A stretch of 64,000 nucleotides of DNA from Bacteroidota bacterium (lineage in GTDB: Bacteria > Bacteroidota > Bacteroidia > Chitinophagales > Saprospiraceae). This document shows positions 64 through 13,035 of this stretch, piece by piece (position 1 is the first letter of the stretch; every line of letters begins with the position of its first letter). The stretch is from NCBI GenBank assembly GCA_024642705.1, contig JAHEAQ010000011.1, positions 1 to 64,000 on the forward strand, in the 5' to 3' direction. Below the pieces are notes generated by a model. That model was not told the origin of the DNA. It worked only from the letters and a program-made list of their open reading frames with translations, and did not search any database. The translations under genes and the position numbers were made by a program.

Positions 64-3000
64 ATGAAAATATTATTAGATATAAATATAAAAGTGTTTG
101 TTTTTTTGTTCTGTTCATTAATTTATGTTGCAGAAACCAATTGCCAAATACTAACAACTAGGCAAGGTGAAGTGCTTATACAAATAGAACATGGCAAAAA
201 CGCTAACATACTTGAAGCTCCATTAAATAGTAATTTCCGCATGCAAAATGGGTTTTCATTTTCGCAAGTAATTGAAGCGCCAATGAATATTTGGAAAATT
301 TCGTTTGACTTTTCGAAAATAAGTGAAATTGAGGTTTTAAGATTTGTAAAAAGTAATTCGGATGTAATAAATGCTCAATACAACCATCTGACATCTTACA
401 GAAAAACTCCGAATGATTCCAATTTTAATGATCAGTGGCAGTACATCAATTTGGGATTAAATGGTGGTTTATTAGGTGCAGATTTAGACGCAGATCTTGC
501 ATGGGATGTAACTACAGGCGGCATAACAGCTGCTGGAGATACCATTGTAGTCTGCATAATTGATGGAGGACTAGATATGAACCATCAAGATTTTGGGAGT
601 AACCGTTGGGTTAATCGTGGCGAAATTCCAAATAATGGTATTGATGACGATGGGAACGGATATATAGATGATTATAAAGGTTGGAATCTTTTTTCTGAAA
701 CCGATGACATCCATCCATCAAATGGTGATGGTCATGGAACGAGCGTTGCAGGAATTGTTGGTGCCAAAGGGAATAATAATCTTGGAGTTACTGGTGTTAA
801 TTGGGATGTCAAATTAATGATTTTACAGGGAGTTGGTGATGAGTCAATAGCATTAGCAGGTTTTGCTTATCCATATATTATGCGCAAATTATACAATGAA
901 ACCAACGGCGCAAAAGGCGCTTTTGTTGTTGCTACAAATTCTTCTTGGGGGGTCGATTTGGGACAACCTGATGATGCTCCAATTTGGTGCAATTTTTATG
1001 ATTCTTTAGGACAAGTCGGAATTATTAATTGCGCAGCTACTTCTAATAATGATAGTAATATTGATGAAGTGGGTGATCTTCCAACGGCATGTTCTAGTGA
1101 TTATATATTATCAGTGAGCAATATTAACAGAAATGGTCAAAAAGAGCAAGGAGCTGGGTATGGAATAAATACTATAGATATAGGCGCTTTCGGTGAAGAT
1201 GTTTATACCACTTCTATTGGAAATAATTACAATGAATTTGGTGGCACTTCTGCAGCCTCACCTCATGCTGCAGGCGCAGTAGCCCTTGCATATGCTGTTT
1301 CATGTTCGAATTTTGTGGATTTTTACAGACAGGATCCTTCTGCTGCAGCACTGTATATAAAATCAATAATATTAAAATCCTCTAAAAAATCTCCAGAATT
1401 TACTGATTTGTTTAGCTCAGGGGGCATTTTGAATTTAAATAATATGGTTACTTCTGTTGCAAACAATTGTAGCGAATGTCCATTACCTTTAAATGTATCC
1501 ATTGACGACTTATATATTGATTCTGCAATAGTGAATTGGGTAAATCCTGATGGGGTTGATAGCTTCAAACTGCAATATAAATCAACTGGATCAGAAGAAT
1601 GGATAAGCTTTTCAAACGCAGAATCTCCTGCAATATTAAATGGGTTGCTACCATGCACCGAATATGAAGTTCAAGTCCAAAGTTTTTGCGATGTCGATTC
1701 ATTTAGTGAGTTCACCTTTGTTCAAGTATTTGAAACTTTGGGTTGCTGTAATGATCCAAATCCCCCTTCCTTTTCAAATGATCCTGATATGGTTCCTGAA
1801 GGCGCAATTTTATTAACTTGGGAAAATAGTGCAGATTATGAAAGCTACATCATTGAATATAAATTTCAAGATTCTGAAGAATGGATAAGTGAAGAAACCA
1901 ATGAAAATTCATTGTTATTGGAAGGAGTTGGTTTTTGCAACTTGGTAGAAACTAGATTGTCTGCAATATGTATTACAGGTGCTACAACCAGCACTTCTGA
2001 AATAACAACTGCATATTCAGGCTGTGGCACTTGCACTTCCTTAGATTATTGTATTGTTCCAGATGTTTTTACTGATGATGAATGGATTGAAAGTATTACA
2101 ATTGACGAAAATAAAATTGTTACAGGTGATAATGATGGATATATTAACAATGCAGGCTTTTTTGATGTCAATATACCAATTAAAAGAACTTTTGATTTTA
2201 AATTAGACAAAGGATTTGACCAAGCTGCATTTCAAGAATGGGTGAAGGTTTGGATTGACTTTAATGCTGATGGTGTGTTTGATGAGGATGAAGTGATTTT
2301 TAATGAAGGTGAAGGCACTTTGGATGATATTGACACCACTTTGTATCTAGATAGAATATTTGTTCCTGGACTCACAAAAATGAGGATAGGAATGACATTT
2401 GCCGTAGAGCCATCTGCATGTGAAGAAACATCAATTGCTTCTTTTGGTGAATATGAGGATTATTGTGTTAATTTATATTATGAAGAACCATGTGATGTAG
2501 GTTTAGAATTTATAGAGATTGTTGCAACAAACACTTCTGCAATGGTCACTTATTCCATGGTTGACACTTCTATTGCTTATAATTTAAGATATAAATTAGT
2601 GGATGAAGGAGACGATGAATGGAATACAATAAGCGTAATTGATACTAGTGCATCCATCTCACCACTAGAGGAATGTTCTCAATATGTGGTTCAAGTCCGC
2701 GCAGTTTGTCCTGTCGATACTTCTGGGTTTGCAGCGGTATCAGATACTTTCAATACATCAGGAACAGGATGCATGGTAGCTACAATTGACTTAAATGATC
2801 TGCCATTAATTGAAATTGTTCCTTATCCAAATCCATTCGTTGATATCGTAAATTTAAAAATCAAAAGTGAAATTTCAGCAACTGCAAATTTAGAGATTTA
2901 TAATATTGAGGGACGTAGAATATTCTCAACGACATATAAGTTGCAAATTGGTGAAAGAGAATTAAGTATTCCAGAATCTACAAGTTGGAATGGAGGTATT

Positions 3001-3066
3001 TACTTCATTAGAATTCAATCAGATCATTACGAATACAGTAAAAAAGTGATAAAACTTAGAAATTAA
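64..3066 (+). CDS. Secreted subtilisin-like serine protease (S8) with FN3, GEVED and T9SS sorting domain
   Basis: A 1000-residue secreted peptidase. A hydrophobic signal segment spans about residues 9-24. The S8 triad is visible: Asp167 in IIDGG, His224 in DGHGTS and Ser396 in GGTSAASP, with Asn292 (TNSSWG) as the likely oxyanion residue. A propeptide-like region (30-115) precedes the catalytic domain (about 125-460). Then come fibronectin-III-like segments (about 480-570, 580-660 and 830-910) and a GEVED-type domain (about 690-800) ending in GEYEDYC. The last 75 residues (YPNPF start, GIYFIRI) are a type A T9SS sorting domain, so it is probably delivered through T9SS to the surface or medium. 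It is the only plus-strand gene before 19 kb and has its own terminator, so it is monocistronic. Catalysis is well supported; the substrate is unknown. Confidence 0.93.
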   Translation: MKILLDINIKVFVFLFCSLIYVAETNCQILTTRQGEVLIQIEHGKNANILEAPLNSNFRMQNGFSFSQVIEAPMNIWKISFDFSKISEIEVLRFVKSNSDVINAQYNHLTSYRKTPNDSNFNDQWQYINLGLNGGLLGADLDADLAWDVTTGGITAAGDTIVVCIIDGGLDMNHQDFGSNRWVNRGEIPNNGIDDDGNGYIDDYKGWNLFSETDDIHPSNGDGHGTSVAGIVGAKGNNNLGVTGVNWDVKLMILQGVGDESIALAGFAYPYIMRKLYNETNGAKGAFVVATNSSWGVDLGQPDDAPIWCNFYDSLGQVGIINCAATSNNDSNIDEVGDLPTACSSDYILSVSNINRNGQKEQGAGYGINTIDIGAFGEDVYTTSIGNNYNEFGGTSAASPHAAGAVALAYAVSCSNFVDFYRQDPSAAALYIKSIILKSSKKSPEFTDLFSSGGILNLNNMVTSVANNCSECPLPLNVSIDDLYIDSAIVNWVNPDGVDSFKLQYKSTGSEEWISFSNAESPAILNGLLPCTEYEVQVQSFCDVDSFSEFTFVQVFETLGCCNDPNPPSFSNDPDMVPEGAILLTWENSADYESYIIEYKFQDSEEWISEETNENSLLLEGVGFCNLVETRLSAICITGATTSTSEITTAYSGCGTCTSLDYCIVPDVFTDDEWIESITIDENKIVTGDNDGYINNAGFFDVNIPIKRTFDFKLDKGFDQAAFQEWVKVWIDFNADGVFDEDEVIFNEGEGTLDDIDTTLYLDRIFVPGLTKMRIGMTFAVEPSACEETSIASFGEYEDYCVNLYYEEPCDVGLEFIEIVATNTSAMVTYSMVDTSIAYNLRYKLVDEGDDEWNTISVIDTSASISPLEECSQYVVQVRAVCPVDTSGFAAVSDTFNTSGTGCMVATIDLNDLPLIEIVPYPNPFVDIVNLKIKSEISATANLEIYNIEGRRIFSTTYKLQIGERELSIPESTSWNGGIYFIRIQSDHYEYSKKVIKLRN

Positions 3067-3434
3067 TTCGAAGATCATTCATAAAATAAAAACCCTAGGA
3101 GGTCTATTTTCCTAGGGTTTTTTTTATTGGATTTTGGCGTTACTTGAAAAATCCATCCTATTTAGCAATGAAAATTTTCTAAAAAATAGTTTTCAAAATC
3201 ATTTTATGTAGACTGAATATCAAACTATCGTAATTTGTTTATTGAATGTAAGTTTCCGACTCTTTCGCAGTAAATAAAAGCTCCAGCATAATAAAAATTC
3301 TAAATGGTTCTTTAATATACCTATCGTTGCAAATAGAAAAATGTGGAAAAAAGAGAAACCAACCGTTATAAAAATATATGAATTTATTCCTTTTGAACTA
3401 TTCAATGAAAGAATCCTTGGATCGAATTAATAAT
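3067..3434. other. Intergenic stretch between convergent genes
   Basis: This 368-nt gap separates the 3' ends of the protease gene and the minus-strand PA14 gene. It holds the terminator at 3089-3126. The rest is AT-rich with one short minus-strand open frame (3220-3405) whose hydrophobic, Phe-rich translation looks like chance AT-rich sequence. I see nothing else in it. Confidence 0.6.
3089..3126 (+). terminator. Rho-independent terminator of the S8 protease gene
   Basis: An inverted repeat AACCCTAGGA ... TCCTAGGGTT closes a stem of about 10 bp with a short loop and runs into eight or more T residues. It starts about 23 nt after the stop codon. On the other strand it could also limit read-through from the minus direction. 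Confidence 0.88.
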
Positions 3435-5819
3435 CTATTCAATTAATGTGATTCTTTTGCTAATCACTTTTTCTTCCGATTGAAAACTTACACTAATGCT
3501 TCCTTTTCCTAATTTTTTAGTCCTAAATCTTTTAGAATAAAGACCTTGATTTTCAAACTTAAAATCAACTAATGTTTGAATTTTTTCACCCATTTGGTCC
3601 GTGATGTATATAGAAGCTTGTCCAGGCTTTTCTATAAAATAACTCACCAAAATTTCATCTTTTTCTATAAGAGTAACTGTCAATTCATTTAATTTTTCTA
3701 CTTCTCTTTTCGCAGCAGCCTCCTTCAATTTATCCGCTCTAGATTTAATTGCTGATCTAAAAACTGGAGTATCACAAGGATCGATAGAAGCGAGAAATAA
3801 AGTCTGACCATAAGTTTCAAATCCCGGGTCCAGGATAATTGATTTCCCACCCACAAAAGAAACTTTATTATTTGCTGCAATATGGCTAATAGAACTCACT
3901 TCGTCAATTGCACTAAATTTATTAGTATACAAAGTGCTATCGCCTAATATCACTACGCTTTCTCCGCAATCGTTTTCATCTATTAAGCTACCCGCGCACT
4001 CACAATTTTCATTAAATATATCACCAAATGTATAATCATCCTGATCGTCGCAAGCAGTTCCTGCCAATGGACAAACGACTGCTGAGAAAGCAACTTTTCC
4101 GAGTCCTTTACATGGTGCGTTGACTTCAAGTGAAGTTATCAAAATATATTGGGCATACAATCCATTAAAATTAGGACCAGCAAACCCTCCATATCCTGAA
4201 TCACCAGTAGCAAGTGCCCAATTATAACTTCCATATTCTTGCCATGTTATTCCATCCAATGAATAATCGACTGCTACCGCTGTCATTCCATTTTGCAAGC
4301 TACCTGGAACATTATAATTCCATATTTGGCTTTTATGCAATTCATGCCGCTTACCCAAATCATACATAATCCAATGACCTGAACTTCTCGCATTATTGGG
4401 ATTTGTTGAAATTTCACATGATATCCAATTGTTGTCTGGTCTATCATCCAATTGATCTGTTAAACTGCATTTTTCATATGGAATATAGTTTGCTAAAGCA
4501 CTATCACAATCCGGGCCAGTGCATGGTGTTCCAGTACAATTGCAATTGTCATCGTACCTATCATTATTAGTAAATGGATTTCCATCGTCACACAATGTAC
4601 CTGCCGGAATACAGGCTAGCTCACATTTATAATCATAAAAATATAATGCTGGAATACGTTTCCAAACGCCAGGCTCTGTATAAGGAGTTTGCCAATATGC
4701 AGAAAAATGTTCACTTCCACCGCTGTCTTTTTCATTTATTTCAATGTAGTAATACATCCCTTTTTCTAAATATATATTTGAGGAACTTTGATAAATAAAT
4801 TTGTCATGCTGCGTCATATAAGTGTAACTAGTCACCAACATTTGATGTGATTGTCTATTTTCAATATTGGCATCTGAGCTCAGAAATAGAATGGTATTAT
4901 CATCTCCCGTTACGTTAAATTTGTAATTTCCAGAAACTGGAACTGTCAGATAAGCTTGAGCTGCATAGCCAGTTTGATCTTGATTATTTACAGATTTCTT
5001 GCTAAAAAAATCATAATTTTCGCTATATACAGGCATTCCAGGAAAATTCTCTGCCATGTACAAATCATTCAATCCTCCACCCGGAATGTTATCATACCTA
5101 TAACCAGTTATCATTCCACGCTCACCTATGCAAATGTCCGAAGTAGTTTTTGTCCCAAAACAATTGCAAAATCCATCTTCAATATCATCTGTTGTTGTTG
5201 GATCTCCATCATCACAAGGCGTTTTTGGCTCAGGACATAATGGATCTTTACAGTCAACTCCATATATATAGCCTGCAGTAATTACATTCCATACATTTGG
5301 ATCCACTAGATCAGTCTTCCACCATATTGAAAAACGATCACCACTCCAATTGTCGATATGAAGTATTTCAAAATAATAAAACTGTCCTGCTACCAGATTG
5401 ATTATTGTTGAAGTCTGTTCTGGATAATCTCCATGAGCCTCTTCATCTACATTTTCTGGAACTGATGCGACCAAACTTTTATTTTCAACGGTTTCATTTG
5501 TGCTTAAATAAAATTTTACTTGTCTATCGCCAGTTACATTAAATTGAACTGAGGTATTGGTAGGCACACTAATAAACCCCTCTACCCTACTTCCAAAATA
5601 GTTGTTATAATTGGTTGGACTTTTTAATTTAAATAATGGTTTAACGACTTCAGGACTTTTTGGAAAATTAGGCATTGCAGAAAGATCGGAAAATTCGCCT
5701 TCAAATAAATCGTTCCATGCATGCCATTCCAATTCACCAAATGTACCAACGCAAACTTGTGCGTCAATTGTTTTGAAAAACAAAACTAAAAAACTAACCA
5801 CAATTAAAATCCTTTTCAT
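3435..5819 (-). CDS. Secreted protein with two PA14-like domains, discoidin-like domain and T9SS-like C-terminus
   Basis: The open frame extends to 5942, but the Met at 5819 starts a clean signal peptide (MKRILIVVSF... ending IDAQ) and leaves 19 nt after the DUF1501 stop, so I start there (794 aa). Two related modules (about 75-190 and 280-398) share FNVTGD, a Tyr-rich YYF/YYIEI strand and an SxWW/YW motif, as in PA14 carbohydrate-binding domains. Residues 450-583 resemble an F5/8C (discoidin) domain (WIMYDLG, SLDGITWQEYG). Three Cys-rich linkers (202-221, 410-429, 590-609) separate the modules. Residues 710-794 form a beta-sandwich like a T9SS sorting domain. Likely a surface adhesin or glycan binder. 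It is last in the DUF1800/DUF1501 gene run, which links it to those exported proteins. Confidence 0.82.
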   Translation of the reverse strand: MKRILIVVSFLVLFFKTIDAQVCVGTFGELEWHAWNDLFEGEFSDLSAMPNFPKSPEVVKPLFKLKSPTNYNNYFGSRVEGFISVPTNTSVQFNVTGDRQVKFYLSTNETVENKSLVASVPENVDEEAHGDYPEQTSTIINLVAGQFYYFEILHIDNWSGDRFSIWWKTDLVDPNVWNVITAGYIYGVDCKDPLCPEPKTPCDDGDPTTTDDIEDGFCNCFGTKTTSDICIGERGMITGYRYDNIPGGGLNDLYMAENFPGMPVYSENYDFFSKKSVNNQDQTGYAAQAYLTVPVSGNYKFNVTGDDNTILFLSSDANIENRQSHQMLVTSYTYMTQHDKFIYQSSSNIYLEKGMYYYIEINEKDSGGSEHFSAYWQTPYTEPGVWKRIPALYFYDYKCELACIPAGTLCDDGNPFTNNDRYDDNCNCTGTPCTGPDCDSALANYIPYEKCSLTDQLDDRPDNNWISCEISTNPNNARSSGHWIMYDLGKRHELHKSQIWNYNVPGSLQNGMTAVAVDYSLDGITWQEYGSYNWALATGDSGYGGFAGPNFNGLYAQYILITSLEVNAPCKGLGKVAFSAVVCPLAGTACDDQDDYTFGDIFNENCECAGSLIDENDCGESVVILGDSTLYTNKFSAIDEVSSISHIAANNKVSFVGGKSIILDPGFETYGQTLFLASIDPCDTPVFRSAIKSRADKLKEAAAKREVEKLNELTVTLIEKDEILVSYFIEKPGQASIYITDQMGEKIQTLVDFKFENQGLYSKRFRTKKLGKGSISVSFQSEEKVISKRITLIE

Positions 5820-5838
5820 ACAATTCAAATAAAGGTTA

Positions 5839-7296
5839 TTAAGAAAACATCCCAATAGGCATATAATTACTCGGCACATCCGCTGGGCAGCCAGAAGGAG
5901 AATAAAAATTGCAAATATTAGGAAGTATGTATGCCAAATCATTTGGAGATGCTCCGTACCATAATGCTAGTTCAGCATAAAATTCATCCACGGAAGTCGT
6001 TGGAATCATCCTCCCTCGATCAGAAACATTCAAATCATTATTGGTTAACGCTAAAGAAGGATATGAACCAAAAATCTGACCACCTTGTATTGGATTTCCC
6101 ATTACAATTTGATTTCCTCCCCAAGCATGATCTGACCCATTTCCATTTGAAGTTAGCGTCCTTGCAAAATCGGAAATGGTAAATGTAACCACATCGTCCG
6201 CCATTCCAATTTCATTCAGTGCGTCATTAAATTCAGCTAATGCATTGCTCAAAACAGGTAACATATTATTTTGATTTCCTAATACATTATCGTGGTGATC
6301 CCACCCCCCGAACGTGGTGAAAAATATTTGTCGATTTGCACCTAATTTGGATCGAACACTAATCACCTCCGCCATCTTTTTAAGATCTTTTGACAATGTA
6401 GTATCGGAAAAAGAGGTCGTCAATGGAACAACATTTGCAAATGCATTTCTAAATATTTCAATACTTTCGGCTGTTTGAGAAGTAAGTGTTCCCATTGTCT
6501 GATGAAAAATATTGGAATATTGCTGCTCGACTATATTATTTATAGCACCGTTTTTTAAATCGTTGGAATATCCGGAATTGCTCCACCATGAAGGCAAACC
6601 TTTAAAGCCGATATTACTTTCGTCAGTGGAATTGCTAATAGAATATTCATTGAATTGGTTACCTGTTTGAAATCTGTTTTTGCCATCTAATGAAATGTTC
6701 ATAGAAATATTTGGAATGGTATTCATGTCATGGAGGATATCCGAAATTCTGCCTCCAAAGCCTACAGCAGATCTACTTTGAGGGACCGATGTTTGCCATT
6801 GCATGATCTGATCATTGTGTGAATATAATCCAAGTGGTAATTTTTTAAGACCATTTTCGTATTCCGTTTTGTTGGCGATTGGTTCGATTAATGTACCGAT
6901 ATTTGAAACGAATGAAAGTTTGTTAGCTGAAAACAAATCTTTAACTCTGCTCATTCCAGCATGCACAGCATAGGATTTTCCATTAATATTAACACCAAGA
7001 TCCGTTAAGTGATTTGGATTATTTTTGTCCAAAGCCAAAGCGCCTCTTGTATTTTGATAAGATAGGTATTCACTAGCTTCTGTGGGCACTAAAAAATTAT
7101 GGGTATCTGCGCCCCCTGCTAATAAGATGCAAACCATTGCTTTATAATCGCCTGAACTTCCAATAATATGAGGTCTTGCAGAAATTGCATTAATCATTCC
7201 CAGGTTTAAAACTGAAGATAAAAAAGCTGTTGAACCTAATGCGGCACAACTTGCTTCTCCAAGAAAATTTCTTCTTGATATCATTCGTTTGCTCAT
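5839..7296 (-). CDS. DUF1501 family exported protein (alkaline-phosphatase-like fold), Tat signal
   Basis: A 485-residue protein with a twin-arginine signal: SRRNFLG at residues 7-13 followed by a hydrophobic Ala/Leu segment up to about residue 40. DUF1501 signatures are present: GGADTHNF (61-68), GGWDHHDN (330-337), SDFARTL (375-381) and GSDHAWGG (387-394). The Asp/His residues in these motifs resemble the metal ligands of the alkaline phosphatase/sulfatase superfamily, to which I recall the family being assigned; activity is inferred. Tat export suggests folding, perhaps with metal, in the cytoplasm. It starts 4 nt after the DUF1800 stop, and this pairing recurs in Bacteroidota and Planctomycetes. 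The true substrate is unknown. Confidence 0.9.
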   Translation of the reverse strand: MSKRMISRRNFLGEASCAALGSTAFLSSVLNLGMINAISARPHIIGSSGDYKAMVCILLAGGADTHNFLVPTEASEYLSYQNTRGALALDKNNPNHLTDLGVNINGKSYAVHAGMSRVKDLFSANKLSFVSNIGTLIEPIANKTEYENGLKKLPLGLYSHNDQIMQWQTSVPQSRSAVGFGGRISDILHDMNTIPNISMNISLDGKNRFQTGNQFNEYSISNSTDESNIGFKGLPSWWSNSGYSNDLKNGAINNIVEQQYSNIFHQTMGTLTSQTAESIEIFRNAFANVVPLTTSFSDTTLSKDLKKMAEVISVRSKLGANRQIFFTTFGGWDHHDNVLGNQNNMLPVLSNALAEFNDALNEIGMADDVVTFTISDFARTLTSNGNGSDHAWGGNQIVMGNPIQGGQIFGSYPSLALTNNDLNVSDRGRMIPTTSVDEFYAELALWYGASPNDLAYILPNICNFYSPSGCPADVPSNYMPIGMFS

Positions 7297-7300
7297 AAGT

Positions 7301-9103
7301 TTATCTATTTATTAGGTATTCTGGTGATGACAACACAAGATAAATTGCCAATTTTGCTCTATTCTCTCTGTCTTCTGCTGTATATCCAGAAAACTTCAAT
7401 ACTGTTTCTTTAATAATATTTAAAGTATTATCGCTTAGCCTTCCCTGAGCAAGAAGTAAATTCAACCTATCCAGCAAAATGTGGAGATTATCATTAGTCG
7501 TCAAAACTACTTCATCCGTAAAATCTAATATTGATTTATCCTCTTCATAATCTGCATCTGGTTCCCCACTATACATATCCCATTCATCTGCAATATTTTC
7601 ATCAATTATCCAGTCATAAATACCATTAATCCATCCAGATAAAGTTTGAGAATCAGTGATCTGAAACTCTGGAGCAACCAAGTTTTGTTGCTCAATAGGC
7701 CCTAATGGCTGATAATCGTTTTGGAAAAAATTAAAAACACTGTTTGAATTTAAGGGCTTTTGCCCAACCCTTTCATCAATTTGATACATCACGTTGCGAT
7801 AATTACCACTCACTGTACTTACATTAAAAGCTTTATTTATTTGAAAATATCGGATAAAAGGCTCTCGTAACTTTCCGAAAGTAACATCCTCTCCAGAATC
7901 GCAACTATTAGCAATTGGGTCTAACAATATGGCTTTAACTACTGCTCCCATGTCCCCTCTTATTCCTTGTCCATTGTTATTGAAAACCTTTGCTACTCTG
8001 TCAATATAAGCTGGTGATGGATTGGATGTCACCAAACGTTGAATTAAATTTTTGCTAAGGAACGGCCCTACATTAGGATGATTGAATAAATTATCGAGGG
8101 CATCTGAGATGTCAGCATTCCCATCAATAGGGTCTCTATCGGGAACGACAAAATTATTGAGAAGCGACTTAATACCGGGCTCATGATAATTCTCCCACAT
8201 ATTTAAATCTAGTAAATAACTAGTTCTAGATCTAGGTCCACTAAAAAAATAAGTACCATCACCAAAAGTTAATCCAGTAAATATTTTTGAAAATTCAGCA
8301 ATATCGGTATTGTCGTATGTTGGTATTGCATTGTTTTCATTATCTAATTTTTGGCTACCATCATTGTTTAATTCAAACAAGCCAATGGTAAAAAGTTGCA
8401 TAATTTCTCGCGCATAATTTTCATCAGGATATCTGTTAGAAGCTACATCTGTTTTTGGATTTCCAGCATAAGTTAAATAAATGCCCATCGAAGGATGATA
8501 GGTAACCTTTTGCAATATATTTCTATAATTTCCAAATGCATTTTGCAATAAAATATCATAATATCCAGCCAATGCATAAGGGGTTCCTCCAATCTGCGAT
8601 TTTTCAGAAATCACTAATATTTCACTCAAAGCTAAAGCAACCCTTTGTCTTAAAGCATCACTTGAAGTCATATGATATTGCCACCAAGCATATTCCCACA
8701 ACAAATAATCTGATGCACCCTCAGTTGTTCCCAATTTGCTGGTGACATACTGATAATATTCATTTACTTTGTCCACAAGAGTGTATGGCATTGGTGTATT
8801 CAATTGATTATCAATCCAATCTTCTATTCCAGTTTGAGTAACAGATTGAATATCTGAAAGATTGTATCCTAATGTTGCCTGACTCAAAAATCTCGAAGCT
8901 GCATTTTCATTTGGCAAAAATCCAGTTTGATTTAAAGTTTTTTCTGGATTGCTATTAGGGTCACTATTTAAAACAGAAACACTTTCGAATTCACCAAATC
9001 CAATAACAATGGTGTCTGGTTGTGCTGTTATGTATGAAGCTATGGAAAGCAAAGTAGCTAAGTTAAATATATTTATAGTTTGCCGTATTTTCATTTTATC
9101 CAT
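7301..9103 (-). CDS. DUF1800 family exported protein
   Basis: A 600-residue, mostly alpha-helical protein with a Sec-type signal (hydrophobic residues 12-27, then TAQ). Met4 (9094) is an equally plausible start. DUF1800 hallmarks are RFLSQATLG (71-79), helices rich in Trp/Tyr (WEYAWWQYHM, 136-145) and NYAREIMQLFTIG (229-241). The C-terminal half carries the family's GQKPLNSNSVFNFF-like segment. It is a typical partner of DUF1501, whose start lies 4 nt downstream, so the two are probably co-transcribed and translationally linked. No catalytic residues are established for the family; a role with DUF1501 in processing or carrying an exported substrate is only inference. Confidence 0.9.
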   Translation of the reverse strand: MDKMKIRQTINIFNLATLLSIASYITAQPDTIVIGFGEFESVSVLNSDPNSNPEKTLNQTGFLPNENAASRFLSQATLGYNLSDIQSVTQTGIEDWIDNQLNTPMPYTLVDKVNEYYQYVTSKLGTTEGASDYLLWEYAWWQYHMTSSDALRQRVALALSEILVISEKSQIGGTPYALAGYYDILLQNAFGNYRNILQKVTYHPSMGIYLTYAGNPKTDVASNRYPDENYAREIMQLFTIGLFELNNDGSQKLDNENNAIPTYDNTDIAEFSKIFTGLTFGDGTYFFSGPRSRTSYLLDLNMWENYHEPGIKSLLNNFVVPDRDPIDGNADISDALDNLFNHPNVGPFLSKNLIQRLVTSNPSPAYIDRVAKVFNNNGQGIRGDMGAVVKAILLDPIANSCDSGEDVTFGKLREPFIRYFQINKAFNVSTVSGNYRNVMYQIDERVGQKPLNSNSVFNFFQNDYQPLGPIEQQNLVAPEFQITDSQTLSGWINGIYDWIIDENIADEWDMYSGEPDADYEEDKSILDFTDEVVLTTNDNLHILLDRLNLLLAQGRLSDNTLNIIKETVLKFSGYTAEDRENRAKLAIYLVLSSPEYLINR

Positions 9104-9157
9104 GTTTTTAGAAAAGTAATTTCAGATCAAATGATTTATTTGATTTGACTATAAATT

Positions 9158-9619
9158 TTACTTCTTTTGGATTTCTTCAATCATTTTTTTAAGCTCGGCA
9201 AGCTCAGTTTTCATCGTTTTATTCTCTTCGGATAACTTCAAAGTATATTGCCATAACCATTCTACTTGTTCTAATATTTTAGCATCCATTGCTTGTAACT
9301 CATATCCTTCTTTAACCAATTGGTTTGCTGAAGGCATATTTATCAAATGCGAATTTTCATGGATGCTTTTTTGAACCTGTTCCAATGAGGGAGTAAGTTC
9401 GAAAGCATGATCTGACCAATCTAATGCATTCTTTACGGCTACTTTGACTTTTTCCGTCATCATTCCGTTCTGCACATAAAGATTATATGGGCCCGGCGTC
9501 GTCATTAAAGTCGGATTTCCAATTACAACTTTTCCGCTTGTCTTAAGAACCATAATATCCTGACTTGAAACGATGTTGTACATTAACAGCAAGGATATTG
9601 TTAATACCAAATACTTCAT
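9158..9619 (-). CDS. Short secreted coiled-coil protein (tail-fibre-like C-terminal module)
   Basis: A 153-residue protein with a signal peptide (to about residue 19, SSQ). Residues 50-110 carry the pattern YVQNGMMTEKVKV ... DWSDHAFE ... LEQVQKSIHENSHLINMPSA, followed by a heptad-like helix (120-153, EQVEWLWQYTLKL then charged residues). The same module closes many Bacteroidota secreted proteins that resemble phage tail fibres or intramolecular-chaperone tails. Here it is almost the whole protein, preceded by only a short beta segment. It lies 54 nt upstream of the DUF1800 gene and is probably the first gene of that run. A trimerising or anchoring role is inferred. Confidence 0.75.
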   Translation of the reverse strand: MKYLVLTISLLLMYNIVSSQDIMVLKTSGKVVIGNPTLMTTPGPYNLYVQNGMMTEKVKVAVKNALDWSDHAFELTPSLEQVQKSIHENSHLINMPSANQLVKEGYELQAMDAKILEQVEWLWQYTLKLSEENKTMKTELAELKKMIEEIQKK

Positions 9620-9779
9620 AATTAATTACTTTATTAATGAACATATGATTGAAATCCCAATTAGAGTTTCAATATTTTACAATTCTAAAATTAGATTCTA
9701 AGGTGGCGGGTGATAATTTTATTAATTATAAATTTGCTGGAGTTATAATTAATATTTAACAATTATATATAAAAACAAT

Positions 9780-9814
9780 AATCTTACAAACTTAGAGGTG
9801 CAAAAGCTAAGATT
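9780..9814 (-). terminator. Possible weak terminator after the envelope gene run
   Basis: AATCTTA (9780-9786) pairs with TAAGATT (9808-9814) across a 21-nt loop. On the minus strand it is followed by a T-rich stretch. It lies 34 nt past the DUF368 stop, as expected for the end of the long minus-strand operon, but the loop is long and the stem AT-rich. Confidence 0.3.
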
Positions 9815-9847
9815 TTAATTCAAATAATGTCGTGGAAGTGTTAAATT

Positions 9848-10849
9848 TCAACCTTTTTTTGAAGATCTATCTATATGATCTAGATATAAAACAATTGCTA
9901 GACCAATCAAAAAAGTAAGGATACAAATCCAAAATTGTGATTCGAAAAAGAGATAGTCCTTAGGCATAACTTTCACTTCACGGATAAGTTGGATATTATC
10001 GCCGAGTAAAACTTCTTTGGTTAGAGATGTTACATCATTTTCGATTATACCAGTTTCTTTGTTTAACCAACTTACTGGATTCCTCCACGGCCATATTTTA
10101 TTCAAAGAACCCAACATAAACCCTAATAAAACAGAAAGTGTTTGGTTTTTATAATTCTTAAAAGTAAATGATAGTAGCCTAGAAAACAGCGCAAGACCTA
10201 ATATACAGCCTATTGCAAAAAAACCAATTGATAATAAGCTATCTACTTCAAAAGTTTTCAATGCATTTTCTGCTTCTCCTCGAACTATGGTGTACATTCC
10301 TAACAGTAATAAAATAAAACTACCAGAAATGCCAGGCAGAATCATAGCGCAAATGGCTAGCATTCCTGAAAATAATAAAACGACATAATTATTGGTTCCT
10401 TCAGAAGGACTTAATAACGTGATTCCAAATGCTATTATAAATCCAAATAATGCAAATGCAATACTCCATGAATTCCAATTGGTAATTTGTCGTCCGATAT
10501 AAATTGCAGAAGAAATAATCAACCCAAAGAAAAAAGCCCAAAGCGGAGCTTGATAATATTCTATCAAATATCCTATCAGAAAAATTCCTACTACTATCCC
10601 AATAAACATTCCTCCAAGCAGCATCACCAGGAAATTGCCATTTATTGCTTTCCAAAATGAACCAATACCTTCTTTTCTTAATGTCTTAATCAAAGAAAAA
10701 TTGAAACCTTTGATTGTATTAAGTAATTCTTCATAAATTCCTGTAATAAAGGCAATTGTTCCACCTGAAACGCCAGGAATTATTTCCGCAATGCCCATTG
10801 CTAATCCTTTCAAGAATAAACCCAATCTTAATGTCGATATATTTTTCAT
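9848..10849 (-). CDS. DUF368 membrane protein, PopT-like undecaprenyl-phosphate translocase
   Basis: A polytopic membrane protein of 333 residues. I use the ATG at 10849, directly after the preceding TGA; the longer frame to 10885 would run back into the upstream gene. Two internal repeats are visible, IIPGVSGGTIAFITGIY near the N-terminus and ILPGISGSFILLLLGMY mid-protein, the duplicated PG(V/I)SG motif of DUF368. Members of this family (PopT) were shown to return undecaprenyl phosphate across the membrane for reuse in wall and glycan synthesis. The gene closes a run that also contains uppP, which makes the same lipid product, so a role in C55-P recycling fits the context. Substrate direction here is inferred. 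Confidence 0.87.
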   Translation of the reverse strand: MKNISTLRLGLFLKGLAMGIAEIIPGVSGGTIAFITGIYEELLNTIKGFNFSLIKTLRKEGIGSFWKAINGNFLVMLLGGMFIGIVVGIFLIGYLIEYYQAPLWAFFFGLIISSAIYIGRQITNWNSWSIAFALFGFIIAFGITLLSPSEGTNNYVVLLFSGMLAICAMILPGISGSFILLLLGMYTIVRGEAENALKTFEVDSLLSIGFFAIGCILGLALFSRLLSFTFKNYKNQTLSVLLGFMLGSLNKIWPWRNPVSWLNKETGIIENDVTSLTKEVLLGDNIQLIREVKVMPKDYLFFESQFWICILTFLIGLAIVLYLDHIDRSSKKG

Positions 10850-10850
10850 T

Positions 10851-12035
10851 TCAATGTTTTCTTCCAAAAATTTTACCCAAATCAAATGCCTTATTGACGA
10901 TTTCGTCCTCTTCAGAAATAATTTCTACTTTGTCAAAATCTGGTTGCCCTGCATCTACCCAAGCAGTGTACCAGCAATCTGCAATTGACTTTATACTTCC
11001 TCTCATTCTATCTTCTACCATACCTCCTAATAATTCATGATATTCTTTCGCATATTCAGAACATTCCAACCGGATGGTGGCATCCAATCTTTCTTCATAG
11101 CAATACTGCTTATCTTGATCATATTCATTGCGAATTTTCATTTCTACATCTAAAACTTTTTGAAGATTTCGATTGCTTTCTTCAACAATATTCCAAAAAA
11201 ATGATTTTTTATCTAAAACATAATCCGCTTGTCCTACAAAAAAATCGTATTCTGAATCTGCAAAAAGTTCAGGTAATCTGCTTTCCCAAAAGGCATGAAT
11301 ACCATCTTGGTTTGTCATCTGACCGTTATAATTTTCTGTGGTATGAAGTGGAACATGAGCATCAGCTATGTAATGTCCTATATCTGTTGCAACTCTTATA
11401 ATTTTTTCTGCATCTTTATTCAAAAAAGCATCCGTTAGTTTCCTTTGTTGGGATTCTAATTCATAAGGTAGTATACCAAAAGTAGAAAATACATCTTCGA
11501 ACAAAAACTGAGAACATTGATTGGACTTGAAATCAAAATATTTAATTAAACTATCGCACAAATAAATTGGCATCTCCTCATATCGTTGAGGTAACCAATT
11601 GTTTATTATAAACTTTTTCCTTTCTTGAAACGACTTGCTCTCTAAAGATTGATCAAAATCTAATATTGTACTATCGACCCCATTCACAAGATAACAAATA
11701 CCGTACTTCGTCACAGCTTCCGCATAATTCCTCGGTACATCTTCAAATGGATTATCTCCCCAATGGTCAATGTCAATATAATGTCTGACGGCTTCAAATG
11801 GTGTTGCATATCTTCTTTTATCTGGATCAACAGCATGCTGAGAAATATACTCAATGTTTTTTTTAAAGAGATTTATCATTTCTCCTGGCAAACAATACAC
11901 AGCCATTTCATTAATCTTTCTATGTCCATAAAACCCCCACGCGTAGCCAAAACTACTCAATATCAGGAAACATATTGATGTATATACAATTAATAACCTT
12001 GTTTTTGAAATACTAATTTTCAAAAAATTCATCAT
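10851..12035 (-). CDS. Secreted zinc-dependent phospholipase C / S1-P1 nuclease-like protein
   Basis: An exported enzyme of the zinc phospholipase C/S1-P1 nuclease fold, about 394 residues. The frame opens at 12056, but the ATGATG at 12035/12032 gives a normal signal peptide (LLIVYTSICFLIL ... GYA) and less overlap with the DUF4340 gene. The predicted mature protein begins WGFYGHRKINEMA; in this fold the N-terminal Trp and nearby His ligate zinc. A second zinc segment is IGHYIADAHVPLHTTENYNG followed by HAFWE. Whether it cleaves phospholipid or nucleic acid cannot be told from sequence. It overlaps the DUF4340 3' end by about 23 nt and ends just before the DUF368 start, so translation is probably coupled. 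Confidence 0.82.
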   Translation of the reverse strand: MMNFLKISISKTRLLIVYTSICFLILSSFGYAWGFYGHRKINEMAVYCLPGEMINLFKKNIEYISQHAVDPDKRRYATPFEAVRHYIDIDHWGDNPFEDVPRNYAEAVTKYGICYLVNGVDSTILDFDQSLESKSFQERKKFIINNWLPQRYEEMPIYLCDSLIKYFDFKSNQCSQFLFEDVFSTFGILPYELESQQRKLTDAFLNKDAEKIIRVATDIGHYIADAHVPLHTTENYNGQMTNQDGIHAFWESRLPELFADSEYDFFVGQADYVLDKKSFFWNIVEESNRNLQKVLDVEMKIRNEYDQDKQYCYEERLDATIRLECSEYAKEYHELLGGMVEDRMRGSIKSIADCWYTAWVDAGQPDFDKVEIISEEDEIVNKAFDLGKIFGRKH

Positions 12036-13035
12036 ATTTCCACAAAATTTTTCCAAATAACAATTGTTGGCTCAACATAAAATCTCCCCAGCTACAATCT
12101 ACAAAATATCTTTCAACTCTAGGATCAATATTTACTGACCTTGTATTGATTTCTGGATTAAATACGTCTAATAGAGGAAATAATTTTATTTCTTTTATAA
12201 ATCCGTTCGTGTCTTCTACCGAAATTTCGGCAATTGGAATAAGAGATTTGATGGAATCTTTGAGTACGTGGAAATTTTCAAATGCTTCAGCATCTAAATC
12301 TTGGAATGATCTAAGAAACCTTTCTACAGCTCCTTTTTTTATTGTTTTGGAATCTATGTTCCTGCCTTTGTCGAGAGGAAATATTTGGTAGTTTTTAGGG
12401 TCAATTGAAAGCTTAAAAGAACTTAATTTGTCCTTAGGATAATTAATTGTAACGTTCTTTATGTTGTTCTCAGCATATGCAAAAACTGTTCGATCTCTTA
12501 GCTGGTCAATATTGTCAAATAAAAATCTACCTCTTAAGCTGCCCTCAAAATTAGGAAGTTCCATTACATAAGGTTGATTGAATCCATCCATTAAGAATAC
12601 AGTACCTAATTCCCCTGCAGTTGTTCCACCAACTTGATATGCTTTTAATAAATTGTTCTCTTGATCATACAATTTTACATTGATTCCAATGTTGGCAAAC
12701 GCCTTCATTATATTCTCATTAGCAGATCTAGGAGGAATGTATTTCATTCGCAAACCACCTAAGAGATCAAGCATATTTCCAATAACATTTGGATGGACAA
12801 TATAGGAATCTTGAACCATCCAATTGGATTCTTTTTTCTCTAATAGAATTTTCCTTCCATTCCTTTGGGAAATAAATATTTTATATATGTCTGTTGGATT
12901 TTTAATAGCAAATTGACGATCTCTAATATCTATTTTTGATGAACTATTGCTATAAGATGATACCAGATAATACCCTATTGCACCAAGTATAATTAGTACA
13001 ATGGACAATATTATTGTGCTTTTTGATTTTTTCAA
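12013..13035 (-). CDS. DUF4340 domain protein associated with the Gld ABC transporter
   Basis: A 340-residue protein with one N-terminal membrane anchor (IILSIVLIILGAIGYYL) and an extracytoplasmic beta-rich body. Features matching DUF4340 are IDIRDRQFAI, the KILLEKKESNWMV strand, VGGTTAGELGTVFLM and a following LRGRFLFD segment. DUF4340 proteins are commonly encoded next to GldG-like auxiliary subunits. Here it lies 9 nt downstream of gldG. Its molecular role is unproven; an accessory periplasmic component of the GldAFG transporter is the simplest reading. Confidence 0.85.
   Translation of the reverse strand: MKKSKSTIILSIVLIILGAIGYYLVSSYSNSSSKIDIRDRQFAIKNPTDIYKIFISQRNGRKILLEKKESNWMVQDSYIVHPNVIGNMLDLLGGLRMKYIPPRSANENIMKAFANIGINVKLYDQENNLLKAYQVGGTTAGELGTVFLMDGFNQPYVMELPNFEGSLRGRFLFDNIDQLRDRTVFAYAENNIKNVTINYPKDKLSSFKLSIDPKNYQIFPLDKGRNIDSKTIKKGAVERFLRSFQDLDAEAFENFHVLKDSIKSLIPIAEISVEDTNGFIKEIKLFPLLDVFNPEINTRSVNIDPRVERYFVDCSWGDFMLSQQLLFGKILWKYDEFFEN

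Follow-up and report, generated by a model that had tools for sequence, protein, structure and literature searches.

The DUF1800–DUF1501 pair and the PSCyt–DUF1501 module are already known. DUF1501 and DUF1800 are found in many genomes, and the accessible parts of the literature searched give no tested function for them. The pair is found in operons with bacterial chitin synthases, where DUF1501 has a twin-arginine translocation (Tat) motif and a functional connection of the pair to this glycan gene has been proposed (PMC5122149, in the part available). DUF1501 clusters are also those of Kamneva et al. 2012, as cited in the accessible part of PMC4452313, and PA14 and F5_F8_type_C are among the in-cis modules listed for the PSCyt proteins of Verrucomicrobia (PMC5615132, section 13). 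Here we describe a DUF1800–DUF1501 locus in the 5.7-Mb draft genome of a Saprospiraceae bacterium (GCA_024642705.1). The window analysed is the first 64,000 bases of the 86-kb contig JAHEAQ010000011.1.

The four consecutive minus-strand genes that a preliminary description of this DNA had reported are present, and their coordinates stand. The first, at the 5′ end, is a 153-aa open reading frame (ORF; 9158–9619) for a coiled-coil exported protein, presumably tail-fibre-like. It is followed by a 600-aa DUF1800 protein with a Sec-type signal peptide (7301–9103; PF08811, Pfam score 273.5 bits, cut-off 26.1), a 485-aa DUF1501 with a Tat-type signal and no type IX secretion system (T9SS) tail (5839–7296; PF07394, 92.1 bits, cut-off 27) and a 794-aa PA14-PA14-discoidin-GCX_COOH protein with a T9SS-like C-terminal end (3435–5819; Pfam and NCBIfam). 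By these coordinates the genes are separated by 54, 4 and 19 bp.

The conserved unit is DUF1800 followed by DUF1501 and a discoidin (F5/8 C) protein, with PA14 as an optional addition. We propose, at chances that we put at about even, that this unit encodes a three-part cell-surface enzyme in which DUF1501 would be a metal-dependent hydrolase, DUF1800 its helper and the discoidin protein a T9SS anchor in trans.

The conserved gene unit

Sixty DUF1800 neighbourhoods were fetched, including two additional sites from the genome of the window, which with the window gives 61 loci. A first script placed DUF1501 directly downstream of DUF1800 in 58 of the 61. In the remaining three (L059, L062 and L091) DUF1800 had been dropped by the gene caller, and a genome search or ORF places it beside DUF1501; by a second script the two genes were adjacent in 73 of 74 cases, L059 again being missed. 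Eight of the 61 loci, including the window, form a distinct DUF1501 group, with E-values of 4e-125 or better to the window's protein and the next at ∼1e-19. All eight have a third gene. The common part of its product is the discoidin domain, of ∼125 residues, and four of the eight third proteins (241–396 aa) align to the window's protein essentially over this domain alone.

We named this DUF1501 clade type P and used its alignment to scan named genomes. At least 80 type-P loci exist, and the best 80 were taken. They come from Saprospiraceae, other Saprospirales, Runella, Emticicia, Arcicella, Lacihabitans, Jiulongibacter and other genera, Flavobacteriales and Chitinophagales, with a few from metagenome-assembled genomes (MAGs) labelled Chloroflexi, Deltaproteobacteria, Anaerolineae, Fraserbacteria and Thermoanaerobaculia. 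DUF1800 is directly upstream and a discoidin gene directly downstream in 62 of these best 80 loci. The other 18 comprise six that end at a contig edge, three with a discoidin gene and no DUF1800 call, seven with DUF1800 and no discoidin gene directly downstream (among them L175, where it lies upstream of DUF1800) and two with neither (among them L161, where DUF1800 follows DUF1501). Where the triad is complete (72 cases, a few places being counted under two locus identifiers), the median gaps are 9 and 10 bp.

Co-occurrence was then counted across the order, in 149 genomes. Of these, 22 have type-P DUF1501 (E up to 1e-60), and the discoidin family is likewise in 22, with 41 listed matches of at least 97.9 bits over the N-terminal domain; the next matches, at 59.2 bits or less and mostly over the T9SS tail, were not counted. 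The two sets of genomes are identical, so that within this sample co-occurrence is exclusive, with the reservation that the 149 genomes are related and are not 149 independent trials. The discoidin gene is downstream and on the same strand for 33 of the 37 type-P genes, upstream for two and not nearby for two. Conversely, seven of the 41 discoidin matches have no type-P gene nearby (contig ends not told apart), and one of these seven has an internal stop. Candidates scored per genome were limited to 10 in the type-P search, 18 in the discoidin search and 9 in a phylum-sample search, so per-genome gene numbers are lower bounds, and presence or absence was used. The preliminary suggestion that the DUF pair is tied to a surface protein of carbohydrate-binding type is therefore borne out far beyond chance.

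That description had also treated all four genes as one locus and had made PA14 part of the link. DUF1800, DUF1501 and the discoidin protein do occur together; PA14 is optional, and the coiled-coil gene was detected in close relatives only. Discoidin proteins were aligned as 12 short and 24 long partners plus the window's, from 70 found in the best 80 type-P loci. The short partners (∼240 aa) show F5/8 C and a tail, with PA14 missing in 12 of 12, and match only over the discoidin domain, and we therefore rejected PA14 as the conserved link. On two DUF1501 (L049 and L052) the label “PA14” was disregarded, since that profile includes a T9SS tail and the matches were taken to fall on it.

In the window's protein, Pfam PA14 scores 64.6 (cut-off 24) over two stretches, the best-scoring of which is the second PA14 domain (4683–4967, residues 285–379). 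The discoidin domain, common to all compared relatives, lies at 4134–4451 (residues 457–562; F5_F8_type_C 28.9, cut-off 28.2), and NCBIfam GCX_COOH scores 36.9 (cut-off 26). The ORF as listed opens at 5942, within DUF1501. A methionine followed by a signal-peptide-like sequence (MKRIL...) is at 5819, which is probably the true start, the listed one being too early.

The coiled-coil gene had been put forward as a partner. A profile built here placed it immediately before DUF1800 in eight of the best 80 type-P loci and also detected it in the genus of the window, in three genomes (L099, one of the eight, is the same place as L081). We rejected it as a general partner on this scarcity and treat it as a late, clade-specific addition outside the conserved core. 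Nine members of the family were aligned, and the window's own genome has two further ones (E 3.7e-17 and 8.8e-11). We take the protein to resemble tail-fibre or Peptidase_S74-type proteins; no Pfam family, S74 or fibre domains included, scored above its cut-off, and the sub-threshold matches were to other families only.

Sorting tails, SprA and export signals

Features of DUF1501 were compared in 134 proteins: 62 of type P (the window's and 61 of 81 of 450–540 aa), 65 other DUF1800-linked proteins (an alignment that leaves out two cut at a contig end) and seven linked to PSD1 proteins. In a quick tree of the 134, a branch with support 100 separates all 62 type-P proteins from the rest, and the seven PSD1-linked ones are set apart likewise; long branches were flagged, making the root inside type P unsure.

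In type P, the T9SS tail is on the discoidin partner and not on the enzyme. By curated models, 11 of 12 short partners have it, as do 10 of 25 long ones, the window's being among the 25, and an iterated profile built here finds it in 69 of 78, with an i-Evalue of 5.3e-13 for the window's protein. It is absent from all 62 type-P DUF1501. The profile built here also finds none in 142 DUF1800 or in the seven PSD1-linked DUF1501. Outside type P, in contrast, 47 of 65 DUF1800-linked DUF1501 have the type A tail themselves (TIGR04183), a proportion that is not that of a random sample, since the 65 come from picked places and 13 were chosen as a short class.

The presence of SprA was tested for 20 type-P loci, nine without a discoidin gene seen alongside (L165 and L169 among them are cut off by a contig edge) and 11 with one. 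SprA was above its cut-off in 13 of the 20, namely all 11 with an adjacent discoidin gene plus L161 and L167. The seven type-P genomes without SprA are MAGs labelled as other phyla (labels and completeness as deposited), one with a partial match of 28.6 bits against a 200-bit cut-off. A whole-genome search at E 1e-12 found no discoidin family member in any of these seven, and 12 of the 13 SprA-positive genomes have one (11 adjacent and one, L167, elsewhere). In the DUF1501 tree the seven SprA-less loci nest inside the discoidin-bearing group, subject to the unsure root; this placement fits transfer of the pair with loss of the discoidin partner.

Some type-P DUF1501 of MAGs labelled Chloroflexi or Anaerolineae have VYLP-type C-terminal ends (L169:1166–2752, L164:6986–8485 and L168:6989–8458), followed in L169 by a membrane-like stretch and a basic end. 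Such ends are perhaps host-specific surface anchors that replace the T9SS partner. Three Vibrio/Agarilytica plasmids also have the DUF1800–DUF1501 pair without an annotated adjacent discoidin gene, in a gene table that is incomplete; their DUF1501, whether of type P or not, are 35–39% identical. One of them, from Vibrio maritimus (L261:8397–21248), has two such pairs, one with tatA ∼0.4 kb away and one followed at ∼1.3 kb by a GH19 gene.

These distributions bear on whether the discoidin protein is an anchor or a client. If DUF1501 and DUF1800, in the periplasm or at the surface, modified the discoidin protein or its glycan before or after T9SS export, the same exclusive co-occurrence would be expected, and with no tail on DUF1800 or type-P DUF1501 nothing forces the pair to the surface. 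However, the pair persists in the seven SprA-less genomes, which have no discoidin member, and in the three plasmids, where none is annotated next to it, so that its target is something other than the discoidin protein. Most of the sampled sister DUF1501 own a T9SS tail, pointing to surface work. We consider a client role unlikely.

The window's DUF1501 has a Tat-type N-terminus (SRRNFLG), with R8 and R9 kept in all 62 aligned type-P proteins; a TAT profile scores 15.9, just below its cut-off of 16.7. Among the 47 tailed DUF1501 outside type P, an RR motif is found in the first 45 residues of 41, or of 44 if starts are chosen to favour the motif. It is found in none of 23 other tailed proteins of the fetched loci and in none of 76 discoidin partners. 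T9SS effectors and substrates are all said to have a Sec-dependent signal (PMC12618676 and PMC9251779, in the parts available), and no paper on Tat-exported T9SS cargo was found by title or opening lines in the literature searched.

DUF1800 signals were called by a crude hydrophobicity count across all possible starts. A strongly hydrophobic N-terminus was found in 67 of 76 type-P DUF1800, the window's showing the same pattern; this count takes T9SS genomes together with the remaining loci. Outside type P, only one of 57 DUF1800 in the main set was strongly hydrophobic and 48 were under 1.5, and three of 13 in the short class were strongly hydrophobic. DUF1501 itself is mostly below 2.0 in this count; since Tat signals are weakly hydrophobic, the count does not separate a weak Tat signal from none. 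An early RR-x-[FLMY] is present in 20 of the main set, mostly without a hydrophobic stretch behind it, and 31 of the 57 are neither hydrophobic nor RR-bearing. The DUF1501 partners of these DUF1800 mostly have the RR motif, and the two observations together suggest export as a pair, such that outside type P DUF1800 may often exit the cytoplasm in complex with Tat-exported DUF1501. Physical contact between the two proteins is indicated by this pattern alone, and indirectly.

RR-x-[FLMY] N-termini of DUF1800 occur in L044, L045, L050, L051, L053, L056, L076–L078, L163, L168 and others. They may be degenerate Tat signals or, alternatively, traces of co-export with DUF1501.

DUF1501 and its partner DUF1800

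A sequence search of the window's DUF1501 against solved structures gave one weak match (E 0.057) and none that was credible. A structural model (pLDDT 74.7, pTM 0.79; residues 1–40 and 231–273 poor) was therefore compared by fold. Foldseek returned sulfatases and phosphodiesterases, the best, a sulfatase, at E 3.9e-06, with low TM-scores of 0.2–0.35. VIA-align matched an NPP-type phosphodiesterase at Z 17.2 (244 residues, rmsd 3.3), choline sulfatase at Z 16.2 and the alkaline phosphatase PafA at Z 15.8. The fold of DUF1501 thus models as that of the alkaline phosphatase superfamily.

The preliminary description had pointed to metal-ligand-like Asp/His motifs in DUF1501, and this reading agrees with the alignments as well as with the predicted fold. 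His160, Asp333, His335, Arg379, Asp389 and His390 are the same in every one of the 134 proteins. The candidate metal ligands include Asp333-x-His335 (codons at 6292–6300, minus strand) and Asp389-His390 (6127–6132, minus strand). Asp64, in a GGxDxxN motif (7105–7107, minus strand), is a further candidate ligand by analogy; it is Asp in 62 of 62 type-P and 65 of 65 other DUF1800-linked proteins and Ser in seven of seven PSD1-linked ones. Ser159-His160 (6817–6822, minus strand), at the start of a model helix spanning 160–168, would provide the candidate nucleophile position and a ligand, and is Ser-His in the same 62 of 62 and 65 of 65. By analogy with the superfamily, the invariant Asp/His residues would be metal ligands and Ser159, less surely, the nucleophile.

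A DUF1501 that had become a structural pseudo-enzyme, forming a surface adhesin or matrix complex with the other two proteins, would go well with a third protein made of binding-type domains and with a nucleophile position that is not securely assigned. We nevertheless find this improbable, because the Asp/His set is invariant in all 134 proteins even though identity among the 65 falls as low as 26%, and such invariance at such low identity is more than a purely structural role requires.

DUF1800 is the constant partner of DUF1501. The preliminary description of the pair as widespread but unexplained omits a second, alternative DUF1501 partner family, PSCyt2-PSD1. The window's own genome has ten DUF1501 genes, three directly after DUF1800 and seven directly after a PSD1 protein gene. 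In these seven pairs (contigs C51, C95, C56, C186, C28, C112 and C183; L179–L185) PSD1 is directly upstream each time; Planctomycetes are where this module was first described. Two of the genome's PSD1 proteins were scanned; both also have PSCyt2, and one has Laminin_G_3. Among 198 Bacteroidota genomes, DUF1501 was found in 92, DUF1800 in 86 and PSD1 in 23, with DUF1800 and PSD1 both in 16. All 92 genomes with DUF1501 have DUF1800 or PSD1, as counted by genome presence, adjacency having been checked in the fetched loci. The only genome with a partner and without DUF1501 is G268, where DUF1800 is broken, being short with internal stops (G268:C49:11328–11771).

The model of the window's DUF1800 is mostly helical (pLDDT 89.6). 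A fold search with it gave no match in the Protein Data Bank at E 0.001, the best VIA result being Z 5.2 over 54 residues, an absence that does not show the fold to be new. A sequence search for solved relatives gave three weak matches to decarboxylases (E 0.05–0.3).

The two alternative partners were compared by matching a DUF1800 profile of 136 proteins to profiles of PSD1 proteins. (The separate type-P DUF1800 alignment has the window's protein and 54 of 73 DUF1800 of 540–680 aa.) The full profiles are colinear, with P 0.0036 and a probability of 9% using seven PSD1 sequences, and P 0.0011 and 20% using 40 reading frames. When the halves were compared separately, the C-terminal half of DUF1800 matched PSD1 at a probability of 77% (P 2e-05, score 41.1; 100 column shuffles gave a mean of 13.7 and a maximum of 22.8), and the N-terminal half matched PSCyt2 at 11% (P 0.0028, score 27.1 over 38 columns; shuffles, mean 13.2 and maximum 20.9). 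The crossed comparisons stayed at background or close to it, with equally high scores in 31 and 6 of 100 shuffles, and among 300 further proteins encoded at these loci none reached either half score (maxima 23.3 and 22.4). Against single PSD1 sequences, P was below 0.01 for 17 of 31 with the C-terminal half and for one of 31 with the N-terminal half, so it is the C-terminal half that carries the homology claim. The haem-binding motif CxxCH is found in none of the 136 DUF1800 and in all 31 PSD1 proteins. From these comparisons DUF1800 looks like a haem-free, remote homologue of PSCyt2-PSD1, and the literature searched, as far as it was accessible, contains no mention of such a link.

The homology could be taken further, with DUF1800 replacing the cytochrome-type PSCyt2-PSD1 as a haem-free relic of a redox module in which a sugar is oxidised or otherwise handled without ester hydrolysis. 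PSCyt2-PSD1 proteins have indeed been proposed to act in redox reactions (PMC2754498, in the part available). With CxxCH in 0 of 136 DUF1800 against 31 of 31 PSD1 proteins, and an alkaline phosphatase fold predicted for DUF1501, we see only a slight chance of this.

Two variations on the pair were observed. A single 1078-residue open frame in another genome has two DUF1800 matches (G141:C7:5812–8943), and in L043, L057 and L095 tandem DUF1800 genes precede one DUF1501.

A possible surface enzyme and known systems

In the three-part surface enzyme that we propose, DUF1501 would be a metal-dependent hydrolase of the alkaline phosphatase/NPP/sulfatase superfamily that folds in the cytoplasm and is exported by Tat. 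DUF1800 would be its dedicated helical partner, with its own Sec-type signal in the window; outside type P, a signal-less DUF1800 would probably leave together with DUF1501. The discoidin protein, whether it has PA14 or not, would be exported by Sec and then by the T9SS, bind a surface or extracellular glycan and, once bound, hold the DUF1501–DUF1800 pair in place. The anchor would be swappable: a T9SS tail in cis, a discoidin (PA14) T9SS protein in trans or, without a T9SS, other ends. The analysis itself establishes the gene unit, its exclusive co-occurrence, the predicted fold, the invariant Asp/His residues, the tail on the partner and not on the enzyme, and the lack of the partner in type-P genomes without SprA; the physical complex, metal binding, ester hydrolysis, a glycan substrate and the use of Tat and T9SS are what we infer beyond it.

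A broader version, which we offer tentatively and regard as somewhat doubtful, is that in this lineage the sorting tail was transferred from the enzyme to a discoidin adaptor, which carries the enzyme out or holds it as a passenger, DUF1800 having its own signal. In that version DUF1800 and PSCyt2-PSD1 would be one superfamily, and all DUF1501 systems would hence be variants of a single two-part machine whose module for glycan binding and anchoring can be exchanged.

Several observations weigh against the proposed surface enzyme. The T9SS tail of the window's PA14/discoidin protein is below the Pfam and NCBIfam cut-offs. SprA is present for L161 and L167, which have no adjacent discoidin gene, and the L161 genome has none at all at E 1e-12. 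The nucleophile candidate Ser159, invariant in the 127 DUF1800-linked DUF1501 as is Asp64, is not so in the seven PSD1-linked proteins, where the residue before the invariant His is Asn in six and Glu in one. The Tat profile TIGR01409 matches only five of 62 type-P and four of 65 other DUF1501. DUF1800 has the N-terminal RR motif too, in 25 of 136 proteins and in many of these with no hydrophobic stretch; by itself the motif is therefore no proof of Tat. Because type-P DUF1800 has its own signal, hitchhiking is uninformative on the window's own pair. Finally, there is no gene for a glycan-active enzyme among the eight Pfam-scanned proteins of window 64–13035, four of which are the locus itself.

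That the discoidin protein and the pair merely share regulation, working on the same resource without contact, is also improbable: seven of 41 discoidin genes do lie away from any type-P DUF1501, contig ends not being told apart, but the genome sets are identical and the discoidin gene is downstream of 33 of 37 type-P genes.

The flanks of the operon were also inspected. A gene for a VCA0040-like (undecaprenyl phosphate translocase-like) protein lies just upstream (9848–10885; Pfam), and a T9SS-tailed subtilase with GEVED and fibronectin domains is convergent to the operon (64–3066). Between the operon end and the subtilase gene is an unstranded, terminator-like palindrome with a 15-pair stem and a T-run (3088–3122; a consensus match only). 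Sigma-70-type promoter matches were at chance level (31, against 33.6 in shuffles). The Bacteroidota −7 consensus is TAnnTTTG, and such a box was seen by eye upstream of the coiled-coil gene at 9788–9795; a well-placed −33 box is absent.

As far as our literature searches reach, what is new is the exclusive triad with the discoidin protein, the placement of the T9SS tail on the partner, the DUF1800–PSCyt2-PSD1 link and a candidate Tat-type T9SS cargo. One DUF clade is tied, without exception at the genome level in our sample, to a T9SS-tailed protein of glycan-binding type, and the location, partner and substrate class of the DUF pair become directly testable. If true, the link between DUF1800 and PSCyt2-PSD1 joins two separate puzzles. 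If the RR-bearing, T9SS-tailed DUF1501 are genuine cargo, it will have to be revised that Sec serves all T9SS cargo.

Four known systems can be set beside the locus. T9SS cargo with a type A C-terminal domain shares its tail with the discoidin partners and with most of the sampled non-type-P DUF1501. Such cargo is said to use Sec (PMC12618676, in the part available), whereas DUF1501 has a Tat-type RR motif and, in type P, no tail. The NPP/sulfatase/PafA branch resembles DUF1501 in predicted fold (Z 15–17) and in its Asp/His ligand-like set; it differs in identity, at 7–13% in the rows shown, and in that the nucleophile of DUF1501 is only presumed. The chitin-synthase operons have the same two families and the Tat motif. 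Their further gene is a chitin synthase, in Proteobacteria, where here it encodes a T9SS-type discoidin protein, and no chitin synthase was found among the eight proteins scanned in window 64–13035. Through the pair that they share with the window, these operons point to glycans as well.

The PSCyt2-PSD1/DUF1501 modules of Planctomycetes and Verrucomicrobia likewise have DUF1501 directly downstream of a large partner, as it is after DUF1800 in the window (gap 4 bp) and after PSD1 in seven of seven pairs of the same genome. The window's DUF1800 protein is not itself a PSCyt2-PSD1 member, since it matches DUF1800 only and has no PSD1 or PSCyt2 Pfam domain. In the PSCyt2-PSD1 modules the partner has CxxCH and in some cases carries PA14, F5/8 C or Laminin_G_3 as binding modules in cis, whereas in the window CxxCH is absent and the binding part is a separate gene. 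The in-cis binding modules of the PSCyt proteins thus have their parallel in the discoidin module that the window provides in trans.

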